Assembly (NCBI GenBank): GCA_001438205.1
Contig: LICG01000007.1
Location: 1 to 63,403 of the forward strand
From: Cryomorphaceae bacterium BACL7 MAG-120322-bin74
Lineage (GTDB): Bacteria; Bacteroidota; Bacteroidia; Flavobacteriales; Schleiferiaceae
DNA length: 63,403 nt
Reading direction: 5' to 3'
The position numbers and the translations under genes are program-made. A model generated the notes under the pieces. That model saw only the letters and a program-made list of their open reading frames with translations. It made no database searches and was not told where the DNA came from. Shown piece after piece: positions 55,425 through 63,215 of this stretch; position 1 is the first letter of the stretch, and every line of letters starts with the position of its first letter.

Positions 55425-55714
55425 GCACGCCCCCTGACCACTGGCCTCTTTGGGAGGTTTTTGTTCGAAGTAAGAATGGTCTAGCCCACAAACATTCCGG
55501 CAGCTTACACGCACCAGATGCAGAAATGGCTTTAAAGAATGCCCGTGATGTCTACACACGCCGCAGTGAAGGCGTTTCCATTTGGGTTGTCCCTTCTTCG
55601 GCTATTGTGTCTACGTCGCCCGACGAAAAGGACCCCCTCTTTGCCCCATCTGATGACAAAGTCTATCGCCACCCCACCTTTTATGATATTCCGGATGAAG
55701 TGGGACACATGTGA
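55421..55714 (+). CDS. paaB: Phenylacetyl-CoA epoxidase subunit PaaB
   Basis: A 97-residue structural subunit bridging PaaAC units. [20 protein letters not shown] at the N-terminus and [20 protein letters not shown] are the family signature. The ATG at 55421 overlaps the paaA stop. The C-terminus overlaps the paaC start by 20 bases. Confidence 0.95.
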
Positions 55715-56459
55715 TCCAAAGACAGCCTATTTGCTGCACCTAGGAGATGATGCGCTGATTTTGGGGCAGCGCTTGGCCGCCTGGTGTGGGCACGGACCCA
55801 TTCTTGAGCAGGATATTGCCTTAACCAATATTTCCCTTGACCTTATTGGGCTTGCGCGTCAGTATTATCAATATGCTGCATTGGAATTTGGCCCCGACTG
55901 CACCGAAGATGATTTGGCGTACTTCCGAGAGAGCCGATCTTTCATGAATCACTTACTCACCGAACAGCCTAACGGACATTGGGGGGATACGCTCGCACGT
56001 CAATTTTACTTTGATACATTTCATTTTTTTCAACTCGAAGCGCTGAGTCAAAGCGCGGATGAGCGCCTGCGTCATATTGCCGCTAAGGCCTTAAAAGAAA
56101 CCTCTTATCATGCGCAATTCAGCGCAGAGTGGATTGTACGTCTTGGAGATGGAACCAAGGAGAGTCATGATAAAATTCAAGCAAGCTTAACGCACTTGGC
56201 CCCTTTTGCCCTCGAATTTTTTGTCCCTAGTGCCGTTGACCAAGCTGCCTATAATGCAGGAATTGCGCCGGATGTAGCCTCACTTCAGGAAACATGGATA
56301 AACAAGGTGAACAGCATCTTTTCGTTAGCCACATTAGACCCATTTACCCTTTCCTTTCCAAAAAAAGGGGGCAAATCTGGCATTCACTCCGAGCACCACG
56401 GGTATGTCCTTGCTGAAATGCAATCCCTCGCGCGCACCTATCCAGATGCCAAATGGTAA
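55695..56459 (+). CDS. paaC: Phenylacetyl-CoA epoxidase subunit PaaC
   Basis: The structural partner of PaaA, 254 residues, with LHLGDDALILGQRLAAWCGH and TNISLDLIGLARQYYQYA. The ATG at 55695 ([14 protein letters not shown]) is the only in-frame ATG near the conserved N-terminus; earlier ATGs lie deep in paaB and give unrelated sequence. It overlaps paaB by 20 bases and paaD by seven. Confidence 0.92.
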   Translation: MKWDTCDPKTAYLLHLGDDALILGQRLAAWCGHGPILEQDIALTNISLDLIGLARQYYQYAALEFGPDCTEDDLAYFRESRSFMNHLLTEQPNGHWGDTLARQFYFDTFHFFQLEALSQSADERLRHIAAKALKETSYHAQFSAEWIVRLGDGTKESHDKIQASLTHLAPFALEFFVPSAVDQAAYNAGIAPDVASLQETWINKVNSIFSLATLDPFTLSFPKKGGKSGIHSEHHGYVLAEMQSLARTYPDAKW

Positions 56460-56932
56460 AGACACAGGAGCTGTGGGACGCCCTAGCTTCCGTGATGGAC
56501 CCGGAGGTGCCCGTACTCTCTGTTTTAGATCTTGGTGTTATTCGTGCTATCCGACATGAATCTAACCGCATCGAAGTAGACATCTCGCCAACGTATACTG
56601 GATGTCCCGCTATGGATGTGATTTCAAGTCAAGTGCGTGAGGCCCTTCTTTCTTTTGGCGATGTGAACATTGTTACGGTCCTTGACCCACCTTGGACGAC
56701 CGACTGGATTAGCGCTGAGGGAAGAAATAAGCTTGAAGCCTATGGAATAGCGCCACCTGTCGGCCGGGCACATGACAAGCGTTCCTTGTGGGCGCCCGTC
56801 CCTTCCGTTCGGTGTCCGCGTTGCAAAAGTGCATCCACTAAATTGATTTCACACTTTGGCTCAACAGCCTGCAAGGCCCTTTATCAGTGTCTGGACTGCC
56901 AGGAGCCCTTTGATTATTTCAAGTGCCTTTGA
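56453..56932 (+). CDS. paaD: PaaD, maturation factor of the phenylacetyl-CoA epoxidase
   Basis: A 159-residue protein of the MIP18/DUF59 family thought to help iron-sulfur assembly, probably on PaaE. The N-terminal half has MDPEVPVLSVLDLGVIR and PTYTGCPAMDVI; the C-terminal zinc-ribbon-like part has CPRCKSAST and CLDCQEPFDYFKC. It is the last gene before the terminator. Confidence 0.94.
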   Translation: MVKTQELWDALASVMDPEVPVLSVLDLGVIRAIRHESNRIEVDISPTYTGCPAMDVISSQVREALLSFGDVNIVTVLDPPWTTDWISAEGRNKLEAYGIAPPVGRAHDKRSLWAPVPSVRCPRCKSASTKLISHFGSTACKALYQCLDCQEPFDYFKCL

Positions 56933-56945
56933 GGCGTTAAAAAAA

Positions 56946-56973
56946 AAGACCTCCCATTCGGGCGGTCTTCTTT
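56946..56973. terminator. Terminator after paaABCD
   Basis: AAGACC and GGTCTT flank an inner CCC/GGG stem with loop ATTC. It is followed on + by CTTTATT and preceded by a run of A, so it works best on the minus strand but can act on both. It separates paaD from the regulator gene and lies in the 172-base gap 56933-57104. Confidence 0.75.
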
Positions 56974-57059
56974 ATTGATTGGTTTGGCTTAGTGTAAGGC
57001 CTTTCGGCAGAGCAAATATTGTCAAAACACTTCACATGAAGCAATAATTTGTGAGAAAT

Positions 57060-57092
57060 TGTGAAACTCAACATGTGTAACATGTTTTCACA
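57060..57092. promoter_or_regulatory. Nested dyads (probable operator) upstream of the membrane regulator gene
   Basis: AACATG (57070-57075), TGTAA, CATGTT (57081-57086) form a perfect 6-base inverted repeat. Outside it, TGTGAA (57060-57065) pairs with TTCACA (57087-57092). Further half-sites TCACA at 57032-57036 and TGTGA at 57050-57054 lie upstream. The dyad touches the -7 element at 57093, a position suited to repression or close activation. Confidence 0.6.
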
Positions 57093-57104: not shown

Positions 57105-58493
57105 GTGCCTATTCGACCTGTTTTTAAGCTTATTGCGTTACTGCTTCTGCCGTTCGCCACCTATGCTACCAACTCATCTTGGTATAGCAGCAGGGACGGC
57201 CTTGCTTTTTTTAACAAGCAACATCACCTCTATAAATTAGACTTTTTAACGGGCATACGCGCTGAACTAATCGCTTCACAATGGGTCACACTCGATAGCT
57301 TTCCTATCCTCGCTAATTCTGAAAGTCTTTACCGTTACAGCAGGCCCGCGCTTACCTCTGAGGACGGGCGCAACTTATTAAACTTTGTCGGTTCAGGCCT
57401 CGTATATTCCCTTGATTCCGTTGGCCGACCATCGCGTATTGATCAAACATACTTTTCGGGCTATAATTACGAATCCTTTTGCGCACAGAGCGGCGGGAAA
57501 CTTTTCGCATTTGGAGGAACTGGGTTCTGGCAACGCCATGCTCTATGTGTTTTCTATGACGGAGACCTGAAAGAATGGGAGCTCCTGTCCCCGGTATACA
57601 GCGCACCTAAAGATTATACCCATTTATTATCAGGCTTGGCGGGTGAAGGTGTTTTTATCCTCGTTGGATCCCCTGGACTTGAAGCGGAGAGAAGCTTTTT
57701 TGATTATCCTGTGTATAAAGTTGATATAGCGCGTCGCTCCTGGGCTAGGCTGGGGGTGTTTAGCCTTGAAGAAGGAGAAAGGGGGCACGAATTTCAAAGA
57801 ATTGGTCATATTGATGAATACGCCTTTTTTCAAATGGACCATCAATTATATGTTGCAGATGTCGTGAATAACCGACTCTATCGTTGGAACGATCTTTTAA
57901 CTGGGACGAAATCCTTTGATGGGTATGAAGGTGTGTTTATTCAAGCAGACCAGGTGATTCTTGTGTATTCTTCCAGCACAGTATCCAACCCAAGCATGCG
58001 GATTCTGCGCATTCGCAAGGAAGATATATTGTCCAATTGTGAGCCCTTGAACATGCCCGTTTATCGTTCGTCTGCCATAAATTTTTTACTCATAAATAAA
58101 TGGACATCCCTCGTTGTATTTCTTTGCGTATTGTTCTTAATCGTATTTGTTGTCCGCTATACCCTTCGGCAACCTAAGCTAGAGGACTCTTTTGTTGCCT
58201 CATTGTCTGGGCATGAACAAGGTGTCCTGCGCCATTTGCTTTTGCTTCCAGCGGATCGGTTCGCCACCATTGGCGACATTGATTTATTACTGGATTTATC
58301 TAAAAAAACATGGGAAAACCAAAGAAAAATCCGTAGTACATCTTTGACCCATATAAACTCCGCCGCCGAAAAACAGCTTGGCTTGGTGGGGCTTATTCAG
58401 CGCGTAGCAAACCCAGAAGACAAGCGTGAACGTCTTTACCGAATTTCCCCAGAGTATATTAGATCAATTCCTGCCTTGCTGAGAAATTTATAA
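57105..58493 (+). CDS. Putative transmembrane one-component regulator: exported beta-propeller, one helix, cytoplasmic winged helix
   Basis: A 462-residue protein I cannot place in a named family. It starts (GTG) with a signal-like segment (FKLIALLLLPFATYATN). Residues about 25-325 are beta-rich with kelch-like blades (KLFAFGGTGFWQRHALCVFY, YKVDIARRSWARLGVF, NNRLYRWNDLLTG). A single strong membrane helix lies at about 335-350 (SLVVFLCVLFLIVFVV), followed by basic residues, so the last 112 residues are cytoplasmic. That tail (HEQGVLRHLLLLPADRFATI, then NPEDKRERLYRIS) resembles a winged helix with a wing like that of MarR-type proteins. It sits between paaABCD and paaG, with paaG starting nine bases after it, and its promoter carries a dyad. 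Sensing and control of phenylacetate genes is inferred. Confidence 0.6.
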   Translation: MPIRPVFKLIALLLLPFATYATNSSWYSSRDGLAFFNKQHHLYKLDFLTGIRAELIASQWVTLDSFPILANSESLYRYSRPALTSEDGRNLLNFVGSGLVYSLDSVGRPSRIDQTYFSGYNYESFCAQSGGKLFAFGGTGFWQRHALCVFYDGDLKEWELLSPVYSAPKDYTHLLSGLAGEGVFILVGSPGLEAERSFFDYPVYKVDIARRSWARLGVFSLEEGERGHEFQRIGHIDEYAFFQMDHQLYVADVVNNRLYRWNDLLTGTKSFDGYEGVFIQADQVILVYSSSTVSNPSMRILRIRKEDILSNCEPLNMPVYRSSAINFLLINKWTSLVVFLCVLFLIVFVVRYTLRQPKLEDSFVASLSGHEQGVLRHLLLLPADRFATIGDIDLLLDLSKKTWENQRKIRSTSLTHINSAAEKQLGLVGLIQRVANPEDKRERLYRISPEYIRSIPALLRNL

Positions 58494-58502
58494 TTCGACC
58501 AA

Positions 58503-59279
58503 ATGAAGACGCTACAAGTCCAACACGCCAAGGGCGTAGAAATTTTGACTCTTTTCCGCCCCGAGCGCTTCAATGCATTTAATCGTGAAATGGCCCTTGC
58601 TTTGCAAAATGCCTTATTGGCGGCGGATAAAAATCCGGAGGTGCGCGTCATCCTATTAACCGGCGAGGGCAAGGCTTTTTCTAGCGGTCAAGATCTCAGC
58701 GAAGCGATAGATCCAAATGGCCCCGGCTTAGACAGGATTCTAAAAGAACATTATAATCCATTAGCTCTAGGTATGCGCAGTGTAATGAAGCCCATTGTGG
58801 TGGCAGTAAATGGCGTTGCCGCTGGGGCTGGGGCTAATCTTGCCCTCTTGGGTGACATTGTCGTCGCGGCAGAGGGTGCGCGTTTTATTCAGGCTTTTTC
58901 AAAGATTGGGCTTATCCCAGACACCGGGGGAACGCTTACGCTGCCAAGGCTAGTGGGGCCTGGCCGTGCGGCAGCATGGATGATGTTAGGGGATTCCATC
59001 TCTGCCCAGGAGGCAAAATCAGCAGGCATGATTTACGAAGTGTACCCAGCAGAAACTTTCTTACATGATGCATTGCGCCTCGCCCAGCGATTGGCTGATG
59101 CGCCCACAAAAGCACTTGCCTTAACCAAACAAGCGCTCAACGCTTCCACTTTTGCGGGCTTAGAGGCCCATCTCGAAACAGAATGGAGGCTACAGATTGA
59201 GGCTAGTCAATCGCATGACTTTCAGGAGGGCGTGACCGCGTTCTTAGAAAAACGATCTCCCCAGTTTTTAGGACGCTAG
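58503..59279 (+). CDS. paaG: Ring-1,2-epoxyphenylacetyl-CoA isomerase PaaG (crotonase family)
   Basis: A 258-residue crotonase-fold enzyme that should convert the epoxide made by PaaABCE to the seven-membered oxepin-CoA. The oxyanion-hole motif is FSSGQDLSEA and the catalytic Asp region is GLIPDTGGTLTLPRLVG, a PaaG pattern as opposed to the Glu-Glu pair of true enoyl-CoA hydratases. Only one crotonase gene is in the cluster, so PaaF must be elsewhere or this enzyme covers both steps. Confidence 0.88.
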   Translation: MKTLQVQHAKGVEILTLFRPERFNAFNREMALALQNALLAADKNPEVRVILLTGEGKAFSSGQDLSEAIDPNGPGLDRILKEHYNPLALGMRSVMKPIVVAVNGVAAGAGANLALLGDIVVAAEGARFIQAFSKIGLIPDTGGTLTLPRLVGPGRAAAWMMLGDSISAQEAKSAGMIYEVYPAETFLHDALRLAQRLADAPTKALALTKQALNASTFAGLEAHLETEWRLQIEASQSHDFQEGVTAFLEKRSPQFLGR

Positions 59280-59331: not shown

Positions 59332-60507
59332 ATGCCGACTACCCCCCTCCCTTTTGAACGCGCGACCGTAGTAGGCGCTGGCGCTATGGGCATCGGAATT
59401 GCCCAGGTTCTGGCACAGGCTGGTCTTCATGTTTGCCTCTATGACACCAAAGAGGAAGCGCTCAAGCGCGCTTTAGGAAAGCTACATAGTACCCTTGGGC
59501 GCTTGGTAGAAAAGGGGCGCATGACGCAAGAAGAGGTCGGTGCCTTGCTCGCCCGCATTCAGCCTATTCTTTCATTGCGCGAGGCCGCAGACTCGGACAT
59601 CGTCATTGAGGCCATCTACGAAAACATCGAAGCCAAGCGCTCCGTTTTTACCAGCCTAGATGATGTGGTTGCCGACCATTGCGTTCTTGCAACCAACACC
59701 TCTTCCTTAAGTATCGCTTCCCTCACGTCAGGTGTAAAGCGTCCAGATCGGATGATTGGCCTACATTTTTTCAACCCTGCCCCCTTGATGCCCCTGGTAG
59801 AAATCGTGCCCAGCTTGGCTACGGATCCAGCGGTAGTGGCCCGCTGTATTGCGGCGGTCAAGGCGTGGGGGAAAGTAGGAGTGGTCGTCAAAGACACCCC
59901 AGGCTTTATCGTCAACCGTGTTGCGCGCCCCTATTATGCCGAGGCTATGAACATGGTAGAAGAGGGGTTGGCTGACGTTGCCACCATTGATTGGGCCATG
60001 ACCCACATTGGGGGCTTCCGAATGGGGCCCTTTGCCTTGATGGACTTAATCGGACATGATATTAACTATACCGTAACCGAAACCGTTTGGAAGCAGTTTT
60101 ACTATGACCCTCGTTTTCGCCCAAACCTGCTGCAAAAGCGATTGGTTGAGGCGGGGTGGCTAGGAAGAAAAACGGGGCGTGGATTCTATGATTACCCTTC
60201 CAAAGCATCAAGCCCCGCGCCAAAAGAAGATCCGGCCCTGGGTCAGGTGATCCTGGAGCGCATTCTTGCGCTTTTAGTCAATGAAGCTGCCGATGCACAT
60301 TATAAGAACATTGCCTCGATGGAGGATATAGAGACCGCCATGACAACAGGCGTAAACTACCCACAGGGATTGGTTTCATGGGGTGCTGCTATTGGATTTG
60401 GTAGGCTCCTTTCCATACTTGAATCCCTTCAACAATTAACGGGAGACCCTCGTTATCGACCCTGCCCTCGTTTAAGGGAGTGGGCGCAATCGTCTCCCCT
60501 ACAATAA
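59332..60507 (+). CDS. paaH: 3-hydroxyadipyl-CoA dehydrogenase PaaH (3-hydroxyacyl-CoA dehydrogenase)
   Basis: A 391-residue NAD-dependent dehydrogenase. It has the Rossmann motif VVGAGAMGIGIAQVLAQAG, the catalytic region GLHFFNPAPLMPLVEIV and DTPGFIVNRVARPYYAEAM, and two C-terminal helical 3HCDH domains. It is shorter than E. coli PaaH (475 residues). It oxidises the 3-hydroxyacyl-CoA intermediate before thiolysis by PaaJ. A 52-base gap follows paaG, with a weak GACCTTTG (59299-59306). Confidence 0.9.
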   Translation: MPTTPLPFERATVVGAGAMGIGIAQVLAQAGLHVCLYDTKEEALKRALGKLHSTLGRLVEKGRMTQEEVGALLARIQPILSLREAADSDIVIEAIYENIEAKRSVFTSLDDVVADHCVLATNTSSLSIASLTSGVKRPDRMIGLHFFNPAPLMPLVEIVPSLATDPAVVARCIAAVKAWGKVGVVVKDTPGFIVNRVARPYYAEAMNMVEEGLADVATIDWAMTHIGGFRMGPFALMDLIGHDINYTVTETVWKQFYYDPRFRPNLLQKRLVEAGWLGRKTGRGFYDYPSKASSPAPKEDPALGQVILERILALLVNEAADAHYKNIASMEDIETAMTTGVNYPQGLVSWGAAIGFGRLLSILESLQQLTGDPRYRPCPRLREWAQSSPLQ

Positions 60508-60516
60508 TCCCCTTTT

Positions 60517-61014
60517 ATGGCTGCTGCCCCTACATTTGAACATGCCGTACACCGCGTCCGAACTTGGACAAACGAAGAGTATGGACAAAATTTATCTGCC
60601 TTCATGGATGAGCAGCCCGCTTTATTTGGGTTTTTGCTCAATCTTTCTGAGGAGTTTGAAGACGATGAACATGAGCAACTTGTGCGCTCAGCGCTTCTGT
60701 TGCGCGAGGGCTTTCGCCTTGCGGCCATTGCTGTTAAACCGGTCGACAACTTGATTATTGAAGATGTCACAACGGGGGTTGTCGAGGCCTTTGAGCAATT
60801 AGAATCCATAGAGGCCCTCGATCCTGAAGCGGTCGTCTCGTTGTCCAGAAGCCCTTTCGTTTTTACAGAAGTGCGTAATTTTTTACATCAAGAACTCCGA
60901 AGAGGTTTGCCCGATGAATACCTTCAGCAACACAACTTGATGATTGTCATTGACATTTTAATCGGTTGCTTTGAAGAAGCGCTTGATATCCCCGAAGCTC
61001 CTAGAGCTTCGTAA
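60517..61014 (+). CDS. Hypothetical all-helical protein in the phenylacetate operon
   Basis: A 165-residue soluble, acidic protein that I do not recognise. It looks wholly alpha-helical, with no signal peptide and no obvious cofactor motif. Features are FGFLLNLSEEFEDDEHEQLV near residue 40, LLLREGFRLAAIAVKP near 70 and a C-terminal RRGLPDEYLQQHNLMIVIDI. It lies nine bases after paaH and nine before paaI, so it is part of the operon. A structural or regulatory role in the pathway is possible but not shown. Confidence 0.75.
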   Translation: MAAAPTFEHAVHRVRTWTNEEYGQNLSAFMDEQPALFGFLLNLSEEFEDDEHEQLVRSALLLREGFRLAAIAVKPVDNLIIEDVTTGVVEAFEQLESIEALDPEAVVSLSRSPFVFTEVRNFLHQELRRGLPDEYLQQHNLMIVIDILIGCFEEALDIPEAPRAS

Positions 61015-61023
61015 CTTCCCCAC

Positions 61024-61437
61024 ATGAGCAGCCCCAGCCCCACCCATATTGTCGACCAGATGATGGCCCATGATGCTTTTAGCCAATGGTTAGGTATTGA
61101 GGTACTCGAGGTCGCCCCGGGAGGATGTGTTTTGCGTATGACCGTGCGTCCCGATATGGTCAATGGCTTTGGCGTCGCACATGGTGGAATATCCTTCAGC
61201 TTTGCGGACAGTGCTCTGGCTTTTGCAAGCAATAGCCACGGAAAGCATGCACTAAGTATTGAAACCTCCATTTCGCATGTTGCCCCCATCCAGCCAGGAG
61301 ACGTACTCATTGCCACGGCGATAGAACTACAAAATGGTACGCGTCTTGCCCGCTATTCGGTAAGTGTGACACATGATCAACAGACCGTGGCCCTATTTCA
61401 TGGCACCGTCTTCAAAAAAGATACCTCATGGACCTAA
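61024..61437 (+). CDS. paaI: Acyl-CoA thioesterase PaaI (hotdog fold)
   Basis: A 137-residue hotdog-fold thioesterase that frees CoA from dead-end phenylacetyl-CoA intermediates. NGFGVAHGGISFSFADSALA carries the catalytic Asp, and VLRMTVRPDM precedes it. It overlaps paaJ by ten bases. Confidence 0.94.
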   Translation: MSSPSPTHIVDQMMAHDAFSQWLGIEVLEVAPGGCVLRMTVRPDMVNGFGVAHGGISFSFADSALAFASNSHGKHALSIETSISHVAPIQPGDVLIATAIELQNGTRLARYSVSVTHDQQTVALFHGTVFKKDTSWT

Positions 61438-62636
61438 GTGCCTATATCATTGACGGGGTAAGAAGCCCCATCGGCGCATTTGGCGGCGCCCTTAGAGAAG
61501 TACGTGCAGACGACTTGGCCGCTCATGCGATTCGATCACTCTTGTTGCGGCATCCATCACTTGATCCTTCAAGTATTGCGGATGTTCTCCTTGGCTGCGC
61601 CAACCAAGCGGGAGAAGATAACCGCAATGTTGCGCGCATGGCAAGCTTGTTGGCGGGTCTTCCCTCCTCTGTTCCGGCAGAAACGATTAACCGACTTTGT
61701 GCGTCTGGCTTAAGTGCTGTGCAGCATGTGGCGCGCGCCATGGCGAATGGAGACGGGGATGTTTTCATTGCAGGCGGAGTAGAGCATATGACACGCGCAC
61801 CCTATGTGATGAGTAAGTCCTCGAAGCCTTTTGGTACGGATAGCAAACTCTATGATTCATCTTTTGGATGGCGCTTTGTGAATCCGCAGATGGCATCACA
61901 ATATGGCGTGGATGCGATGGGTGAAACTGCCGAAAACTTGGTGGATCAATACGGCATTTCCCGCGAAGACCAGGATGCCTTTGCCTTGTGGAGCCAGCAA
62001 AAGACCGCGGCAGCTCAATCGGCTGGGCGCTTGTCAGAAGAAATTGCTGCGGTACGGATTCCACAGCGGAAGGGAGATGCGCTAGTGGTTTCATACGATG
62101 AGTTTCCAAAGCCATCCAGTAGCCTAGGAGGGCTTTCTGCCCTGCGGCCTGCATTTAGAAAAGACGGGAGCGTGACTGCAGGTAATGCAAGTGGCTTAAA
62201 TGATGGGGCTGCTGCCCTTCTCATGGCGACAGGTCAAGGGGTGAAATCCCATGGACTAACCCCTATAGCACGTATTGTTGCGGGAGGTGTCGCAGGCGTT
62301 GAGCCTAGGACCATGGGCATTGGCCCTGTGCCCGCCACAGAAATAGCCCTGAAAAAGGCGGGGCTCACCCTTGCAGATATGGATGTAATCGAGTTAAATG
62401 AAGCCTTTGCTGCGCAAGCTTTGGCTTGTACCCGCGCCATGGGACTTGATGATCGTGATGCCCGAATCAACCCAAATGGTGGCGCCATTGCCTTGGGTCA
62501 CCCTTTAGGTATGACCGGCGCGCGTATTGCGTTAAGTGCATCTAGACAATTGCACCGCCAGAATGGCCGCTATGCCCTCGTAACGATGTGCATCGGAGTG
62601 GGTCAAGGTTATGCCCTCATATTAGAACGCGCTTAG
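61428..62636 (+). CDS. paaJ: 3-oxoadipyl-CoA/acetyl-CoA thiolase PaaJ
   Basis: A 402-residue thiolase that cleaves 3-oxo-dehydrosuberyl-CoA and 3-oxoadipyl-CoA to succinyl-CoA and acetyl-CoA. The nucleophile Cys is in NRLCASGLSAVQH, the His in GGAIALGHPLGMTGAR and the second Cys in MCIGVGQG. It is followed immediately by paaY, whose ATG begins one base after the stop. Confidence 0.93.
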   Translation: MDLSAYIIDGVRSPIGAFGGALREVRADDLAAHAIRSLLLRHPSLDPSSIADVLLGCANQAGEDNRNVARMASLLAGLPSSVPAETINRLCASGLSAVQHVARAMANGDGDVFIAGGVEHMTRAPYVMSKSSKPFGTDSKLYDSSFGWRFVNPQMASQYGVDAMGETAENLVDQYGISREDQDAFALWSQQKTAAAQSAGRLSEEIAAVRIPQRKGDALVVSYDEFPKPSSSLGGLSALRPAFRKDGSVTAGNASGLNDGAAALLMATGQGVKSHGLTPIARIVAGGVAGVEPRTMGIGPVPATEIALKKAGLTLADMDVIELNEAFAAQALACTRAMGLDDRDARINPNGGAIALGHPLGMTGARIALSASRQLHRQNGRYALVTMCIGVGQGYALILERA

Positions 62637-63215
62637 ATGTTTTTTGAATTCAACGGGCTAAGACCCATCGTCCACCCAAGTGCCTTCGTTCACCCGCAAG
62701 CCAATGTCACGGGCGATGTGTGGATTGGGGAAGATGTGTATATAGGTCCTGGCGCTGTTTTGCGTGGGGATTGGGGCCGGATCACGGTGGGCAATGGCGC
62801 CAACATTCAAGAAAACTGTATTGTTCATGTTTTTCCCGGAAAAGATGTTATTCTAGAATCTAGTGCGCACATAGGGCACGGTGCAATCATTCACGGGGCT
62901 CATGTTGGAGAAAATTGCCTCATTGGCATGAACGCCGTCCTCATGGACGATTCCGTCATTGGGCCCAATTCGATTGTGGGGGCGCTCGCTTTTGTCCCGC
63001 AGGGCATGATCGTGCCCGAGCGCTCCATCGTGGTTGGCAACCCCGCAAAGGTGGTCAAAGAGGCCACGGACGAGCAAATAGCGTGGAAGTCAGAAGGGAC
63101 GTCTTGGTATCAGCGTTTACCAAAAGAATGTCAAAAAACTTTGCGAGAGTGTCTCCCGCTAGCTTCCCCGGAGCCAGATCGTCCTCGATCAAAGGGAGGA
63201 TTTCTTCCTCGCTAA
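62637..63215 (+). CDS. paaY: PaaY, hexapeptide-repeat thioesterase of the gamma-carbonic anhydrase fold
   Basis: A 192-residue trimeric left-handed beta-helix protein. NGLRPIVHPSAFVHPQANV, VLRGDWGRITVGNGANIQ and HIGHGAIIHGAHVG give the metal-binding His pattern, and the extended C-terminus (WYQRLPKECQKTLRECLPL, then arginine-rich) matches PaaY more than generic carbonic anhydrases. PaaY clears toxic CoA esters formed when ring opening fails. It ends the cluster. Confidence 0.9.
   Translation: MFFEFNGLRPIVHPSAFVHPQANVTGDVWIGEDVYIGPGAVLRGDWGRITVGNGANIQENCIVHVFPGKDVILESSAHIGHGAIIHGAHVGENCLIGMNAVLMDDSVIGPNSIVGALAFVPQGMIVPERSIVVGNPAKVVKEATDEQIAWKSEGTSWYQRLPKECQKTLRECLPLASPEPDRPRSKGGFLPR

Follow-up and report, generated by a model that had tools for sequence, protein, structure and literature searches.

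What regulates the phenylacetate (paa) genes of Cryomorphaceae bacterium BACL7 MAG-120322-bin74, in which a gene for a predicted membrane-spanning protein stands among the paa genes, and could that protein itself be the regulator? The locus lies on contig LICG01000007.1, of which the whole analysed stretch (63,403 nucleotides) is hereafter called the window. The profile matches of paaA, paaC and paaD exceed their cut-offs, and the gene in question is followed after only 9 bp (stop codon to paaG start) by paaG, and then by paaH, an unnamed gene, paaI, paaJ and paaY (Table 1), so that its placement at the head of a phenylacetate operon in an earlier note on this DNA is borne out. The hairpin behind paaD is a possible terminator dividing paaABCD from the operon of the putative regulator, although a simple terminator scan scored none at this position. 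The unnamed gene between paaH and paaI is itself conserved: proteins from this position share 60-83% identity within the window's genus, and the counterparts in another genus, g9, are about 30-32% identical.

Table 1. Features of the paa locus in the window, with the parts of the encoded regulator given by residue
Feature	Positions	Strand	Basis
Presumed paaE-like oxidoreductase, divergent from paaA	53199..54407	-	ORF
paaA	54453..55424	+	TIGR02156
paaC (ORF as called; profile match from residue 68)	55539..56459	+	TIGR02158
paaD	56453..56932	+	TIGR02159
Hairpin AAGACC..GGTCTT behind paaD	56946..56969	+	sequence; hairpin-like sequence at same place in aligned relatives
Candidate operator GTGA-N6-GTGA-N13-TAAC-N6-TCAC	57051..57091	.	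upstream alignment, pattern scans
Transmembrane regulator gene (462 aa), predicted	57105..58493	+	ORF, homologues, AlphaFold
Likely signal peptide (residues 1-21)	57105..57167	+	hydrophobic stretch ending TYA; model with low-confidence 15-19
Exported kelch-type beta-propeller, predicted (~residues 22-315)	57168..58049	+	model, fold matches, alignment
Membrane helix, predicted (residues 332-354)	58098..58166	+	AlphaFold; sequence
Cytoplasmic winged-helix domain, predicted (residues 358-462)	58176..58490	+	models, alignment, structure matches
Long third helix (residues 403-425), candidate DNA-recognition helix, role inferred	58311..58379	+	models
paaG-like, first enzyme gene after regulator	58503..59279	+	TIGR02280 best, below cut-off
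paaH-like 3-hydroxyacyl-CoA dehydrogenase	59332..60507	+	NF006124 over cut-off; TIGR02279 below
Unnamed 165-aa protein, same operon	60517..61014	+	no NCBIfam match at 1e-10
Presumed paaI-like thioesterase	61024..61437	+	ORF
paaJ / pcaF-type thiolase	61428..62636	+	NCBIfam profile
paaY-like	62637..63215	+	TIGR02287 best, below cut-off

The gene, which begins with a GTG codon, is real and conserved: homologues across its full length were found in 15 other genomes, with 23-45% identity to the window protein. An AlphaFold model computed from 22 natural sequences (the window and the fetched loci) reached a mean pLDDT of 86.4 and places strands across residues 23-322 as a propeller, with invariant GG.G.W and EW motifs. 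Both Foldseek and VIA-align match this region to kelch propellers (best Z 12.7, rmsd 4.4, 250 aligned), in agreement with the exported, kelch-like, beta-rich domain described earlier; the membrane helix at about residues 335-350 and the 112-residue tail given there were likewise correct within a few residues. The segment RYTLRQPK on the C-terminal side of the helix is the more positive flank, and that side is thus predicted to lie inside the cell. Sequence-based assignments are fainter: Kelch_6 falls below its Pfam cut-off (E 0.011, 16.1 bits vs 25.3), no Pfam cut-off is passed by either half of the protein, and a full-protein sequence search of solved structures gave a best E of 0.25. The Pfam profiles also matched no kinase or receiver domain in it. 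The window protein appears, from its modeled architecture, to combine a sensor and a DNA-binding-type domain in one chain across a single membrane helix.

The C-terminal domain is modeled with helices at residues 358-366, 369-380, 389-395, 403-425, and 449-461 and a wing formed by strands 431-435 and 443-447, and it retains a pLDDT of 82 when folded alone. Its most conserved stretch, K.W.NQRKIR, marks the start of the long third helix, and a conserved D.R...Y motif is located in the wing. Among the VIA matches listed for this domain, MepR of the MarR family ranks first (Z 8.9, rmsd 4.4, 90 aligned), followed by MarR, OmpR/PhoB-type (AdeR, Z 8.3), and ToxR winged helices; the best Foldseek match has an E of 5e-3. 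These agree with the winged-helix tail that had been claimed, at middling scores, and they are interspersed with winged helices of non-regulators such as ORC2 (Z 8.2), for which reason we regard the support of these models for a winged-helix fold as fair and that for DNA binding as indirect. The search against HTH profiles, proposed earlier as a check, yielded a weak match to the MarR-type profile HTH_27 (E 0.13, 13.0 bits vs the Pfam cut-off of 22.2), and a profile of the domain run against the sequences of solved structures returned a kinase as its best match (E 0.095), with MarR wings at E of at least 0.29.

The distribution of relatives indicates how firmly this protein is tied to the paa genes. 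A search with the window protein alone finds matches in 23 of 60 related genomes; the 18 matches with E 5.3e-25 or better all lie among paa genes, and the five at E 1.3e-12 or weaker have no paa neighbours in the stretches read. A profile built from 16 sequences finds matches in 42 of the 88 genomes of the same GTDB family and in 17 of 246 genomes drawn from the order, all 17 within this family (the records of these relatives are mostly named Schleiferiaceae, Cryomorphaceae, or Flavobacteriales; Phaeocystidibacter luteus, L139, stands under Phaeocystidibacteraceae in NCBI). The paa link is present in 22 of the 42, viz., those with the closest relatives (16 from the window's genus, three from genus g12, and three from g9), and the remaining 20 comprise 16 genomes of genus g6, three with divergent versions in the window's genus, and one of g8. 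The paaG gene lies directly behind on the same strand in 19 of the 22 paa-linked genomes, separated by 9-14 bases in seven and overlapping in frame position in 12 (by 8 bases in eight genomes, by 4 in two, by 16 in one, and by 83 in one, the last figure resting on a crude start call); in G004 unread bases interrupt the regulator gene, and the gap to paaG is 12. In the three g9 genomes the regulator is found behind paaD, with paaG on the other strand. The cultured carrier Phaeocystidibacter luteus (L139) has its copy behind paaD rather than ahead of paaG. A tree built on 44 chosen rows shows strong clustering of the paa-linked ones, and the link needs two changes vs 14.8 in shuffles; the deepest forks are weak (42/50), and 26% of the bootstrap trees need a single change, as a single origin of the link would give. 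The association is not obligatory from the side of the pathway: three genomes of the window's genus (G013, G015, and G018) have paaA and neither a paa-linked regulator nor the four-part site described below, from which it follows that the pathway can do without the regulator. In the two of these whose clusters were followed as far as paaG (G013 and G015), the neighbour of paaG among the called genes is paaD or paaC.

More distant members occupy other neighborhoods. In genus g6, 13 of 16 relatives adjoin a gene for 3-hydroxyanthranilate dioxygenase or the gene behind it, which codes for an amidohydrolase-like protein that we take to act as a ring decarboxylase; they are convergent with the nearest kynurenine-cluster genes and hence do not form one operon with them. 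Two of the other three lie on contigs of 9.4 and 4.6 kb, and the third, a weak match in G098, is found elsewhere. At L043:6005-11959, as in the other g6 genomes of this arrangement (13 of 16), the paralogue is accompanied by a small gene with a weak match to outer-membrane barrels beside the kynurenine / 2-aminomuconate cluster. The kynurenine-linked relatives have a different conserved motif at the regulator start in 11 of 15 loci scanned, which is perhaps partly coding and is absent elsewhere within the fetched g6 loci. Divergent paralogues (L044:7904-9295, L045:3655-5058, and L046:2576-3952) also occur in three genomes of the window's genus from which the paa-linked regulator is missing, the first of them beside polysaccharide genes (nucleotide-sugar, glycosyltransferase). 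A scan of named genomes recovered five still more distant relatives, in Mucilaginibacter, Daejeonella, a member of the Sphingobacteriaceae, Lutibacter, and an uncultured Bacteroidetes, none of the five with paa neighbours. At the level of the phylum, a wider profile found matches in 35 of 395 genomes, a count that includes the window's own genome and several matches close to the E limit; none of 19 loci fetched from the others has a paa neighbour within about 1.5 kb on each side. A similar C-terminal end is seen in relatives across the Bacteroidota outside the family (L147, L150, L153, and others), with two such proteins encoded in a row in L153; we know of no family name for these. The question raised earlier, whether homologues always sit next to paa genes, thus receives a divided answer: the close relatives do (22 genomes), and the distant ones sit by kynurenine genes, polysaccharide genes, or neither. 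Homologues scattered with no paa link, named in the earlier note as a ground for refutation, are what the wider family shows and the close relatives do not.

The alignment of upstream regions reveals a candidate operator. In the relatives, a block of the form GTGA-N6-GTGA-N13-TCAC-N6-TCAC ends shortly before the regulator start codon; in the window the third half-site is TAAC, one letter off. Allowing up to two mismatches, the window holds this pattern at a single place on both strands, with 0.02 expected. Across 1.24 Mb of fetched loci (duplicates included, some genomes being present twice), sites with at least 15 of the 16 half-site letters occur solely in front of the regulator gene. Whole-genome scans of the window's genus recover exactly one site, before the regulator gene, in 14 of 16 carriers and none in the six non-carriers, a joint absence of site and gene that is expected for neighbouring DNA as the two adjoin; the reversed pattern gives no match in any of the 22 genomes. 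The two carriers without a match are G019, with an extra base in the first spacer (L126), and G004, where the stretch is unread. The half-sites carry 1.95 bits of conservation vs 0.96 in the spacers of 14 sites, a difference that is partly by construction because the pattern was derived from, and the sites chosen in, the same sequences. The end of the site is 3 bases from the start codon in nine of the 14 sites, and 13 in the window.

Genus g12 presents a variant, GKGA-N6-GKGA-N3-TCCC-N6-TCAC, once in each of its three genomes. Its middle gap is 3 instead of 13, i.e., shorter by 10 bp or one helical turn; the left pair reads GGGA twice in G032 and G063 and GTGA twice in G062, and TCCC is found in all three, a pattern that is suggestive of a matched change of half-sites in two of the three. 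The paired half-sites, together with a length change that keeps the phase, argue for protein multimers, and the site looks like one that paired dimers might bind on one face of the helix. No clear four-part site was recognised in the three g9 genomes, and none was seen ahead of paaA in 13 loci, of which one was partly unread and two have doubtful starts. Three other candidates were set aside: a general CRP-like TGTGA motif (the element joins a direct-repeat pair to an inverted pair opposite it and occurs in single copy); the palindrome AACATGT-N3-ACATGTT of the window, whose core has five matches with up to two mismatches vs 1.8 expected, one of them exact, and which is not conserved in relatives; and a TTGTGA-N4-TTGTGA pair, whose 8 matches in the window at up to two mismatches do not stand out against the 5.55 expected.

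Could the conserved sequence instead be bound by a different factor or belong to a promoter, with the winged helix serving some other role? The part TATTTTCAC of the block before the start could also serve a promoter, and the non-regulators among the winged-helix matches would be compatible with another role for this domain. Against this, the single site per genome speaks against a global factor, and the paired half-sites with their phase-keeping change favour protein multimers; we hold this explanation to be quite improbable. A second conserved block at 56980-57030 (TTTGGTGTGA.GCC ... CAAATGTG in relatives) lies between the hairpin and the four-part site, and might perhaps be a promoter or contain further half-sites. 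Bacteroidota promoters differ from the sigma-70 pattern; a sigma-70 rule found two matches vs 0.6 expected, which were for this reason left out of account, and a promoter-like -33/-7 spacing is inconsistent between genomes.

We propose as the probable reading that the window protein is an autoregulating transmembrane one-component regulator of the paaG-paaY operon that acts via the four-part site. The kelch-type propeller outside the inner membrane would receive a signal, either a small molecule or a partner protein, and the single membrane helix would carry the change inward, where the MarR-like winged helices, probably paired as dimers, would bind the four half-sites before their own start codon. 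The predicted anatomy, the place in the operon, and the one conserved site per genome are what the analysis shows; we infer the binding of that site by this protein, the sign of the control, and the signal. As paaG to paaY share the operon with the regulator, its autoregulation would also govern the lower part of phenylacetyl-CoA breakdown. The short distance between the site and the start codon moderately favours repression that the signal relieves over activation. The earlier proposal that the protein controls the paa genes would apply to the operon from the regulator through paaG to paaY, which has the candidate site in front; with none upstream of paaA in the loci read, it is restricted to this lower operon, and the upper one is left unexplained by the proposed regulator. 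The single-membrane-helix layout would also accommodate a different step, namely proteolysis that frees the winged helix from the membrane before it binds DNA; nothing specific speaks for this beyond that layout, and nothing specific against it, and we give it a very low probability.

A further alternative is that this is a lone autoregulating sensor that came to lie in the paa cluster by chance, controlling its own level and some other process while paaG to paaY ride on its promoter. Several observations could be read in this way: the scans of the window's genus and of g12 place the site at the regulator's own gene only, the g6 paralogues are not in one operon with the kynurenine genes beside them and have a start motif of their own (11 of 15 loci), and in g9 the regulator is not in one operon with paaG. 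However, paaG lies behind it in 19 of the 22 carriers, with 12 overlaps, and in the other three the gene is still behind paaD, such that we consider chance placement unlikely.

What signal might the proposed regulator of the paaG-paaY operon read, and does any other regulator compete for the role? The PaaX profile has no match in the 22 genomes of the genus, including the window protein, and the sole TetR_N match in the window's genome lies apart from the paa genes, on contig C50, in line with the earlier statement that PaaX and PaaR are missing from the window; PaaX or a local TetR protein as the actual regulator was therefore rejected. PaaA is matched in 19 of these 22 genomes and the phenylacetate-CoA ligase PaaK (TIGR02155) in none, in a search that was positive in 10 of 14 control genomes; hence, phenylacetyl-CoA must come by another route or ligase. 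The indolepyruvate oxidoreductase alpha family, a different supplier of phenylacetyl-CoA, yielded a single weak and partial hit that stayed under the cut-off. With no PaaK match, external phenylacetate is, judged from gene content, a poor candidate for the signal. This bears on the version in the earlier note, in which phenylacetate or another aromatic compound binds from outside and all the paa genes are controlled: it can draw on the position in the paa cluster and on the relatives that, in 13 of 16 g6 genomes, adjoin a second pathway of aromatic ring cleavage, but PaaK was found in none of 22 genomes and no site lies upstream of paaA in the loci read, making it rather unlikely in that form. 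The interpretation given there as a whole is partly supported.

The conserved four-part site in front of the regulator start codon is new here. In the portions cited, a 2022 review presents the GntR-type and TetR-type regulators as the two existing phenylacetate control systems (PMC9493321), and a survey from 2026 covers PaaX, PaaR, and PaaY where they lie no more than 20 genes from a gene for phenylacetate-CoA ligase, its main text making no mention of Bacteroidota or Bacteroidetes (PMC13186573). A cluster lacking PaaK would presumably not enter a survey anchored on that ligase. A literature search, in which few subscription journals were covered, found no paper on a propeller-membrane-winged-helix family. 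The wider reading, for which we see about even chances, is that phenylacetyl-CoA catabolism has here a regulator of a third kind, in which a membrane-bound kelch propeller reads the outside and a lone four-part operator is the target, in genomes with no recognisable PaaK, and whose paralogues constitute a broad, apparently undescribed Bacteroidota family deployed on different pathways. If true, some Bacteroidota would couple a central route of aromatic breakdown to a signal from outside; with one protein and one 41-bp site per genome, the idea of regulation is directly testable.

The window protein shares traits with several known systems. Members of the MarR family are soluble and dimeric and have no sensor in the membrane; the window protein resembles the family (MepR) in its winged-helix fold and the D.R...Y wing motif, with HTH_27 being weak, and differs in its predicted membrane sensor and in not reaching the Pfam cut-off. 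ToxR and CadC have one membrane helix, a winged helix inside, and a sensor outside; the C-terminal domain of the window protein matches the ToxR winged helix (8b4b_Y, Z 7.7, rmsd 2.8, 80 aligned), but the DNA-binding domain of ToxR and CadC is N-terminal, whereas that predicted here is C-terminal, behind the propeller. PaaX and PaaR are soluble, unlike the window protein, which is predicted to span the membrane and has no PaaX profile match. According to the cited part of the review, PaaX (GntR type) represses its own paaXY promoter, and both PaaX and PaaR (TetR type) respond to phenylacetyl-CoA (PMC9493321); as far as that account goes, the window protein is like them a candidate regulator of phenylacetate catabolism encoded with paa genes. 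A similar layout is that of SusR of Bacteroides, which according to the cited sections sits in the membrane with its sensor in the periplasm and its DNA-binding domain at the C-terminus and is encoded near the genes under its control, with DNA motifs made up of paired sites (PMC3878776). The C-terminal position of the DNA-binding domain, claimed earlier as a difference from SusR, is therefore a shared trait, and the two agree, by prediction for the window protein, in combining such a domain with a periplasmic sensor. Compared by layout and not by sequence, and within what those sections describe, the window protein is set apart by its kelch-type propeller, its MarR-like winged helix, and its paa operon. 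SusR binds maltose, and the motifs predicted for its relatives of the SusR-like type consist of direct repeats at a distance of 67 or 77 bp (PMC3878776); the candidate site of the window comprises four half-sites within 41 bp.
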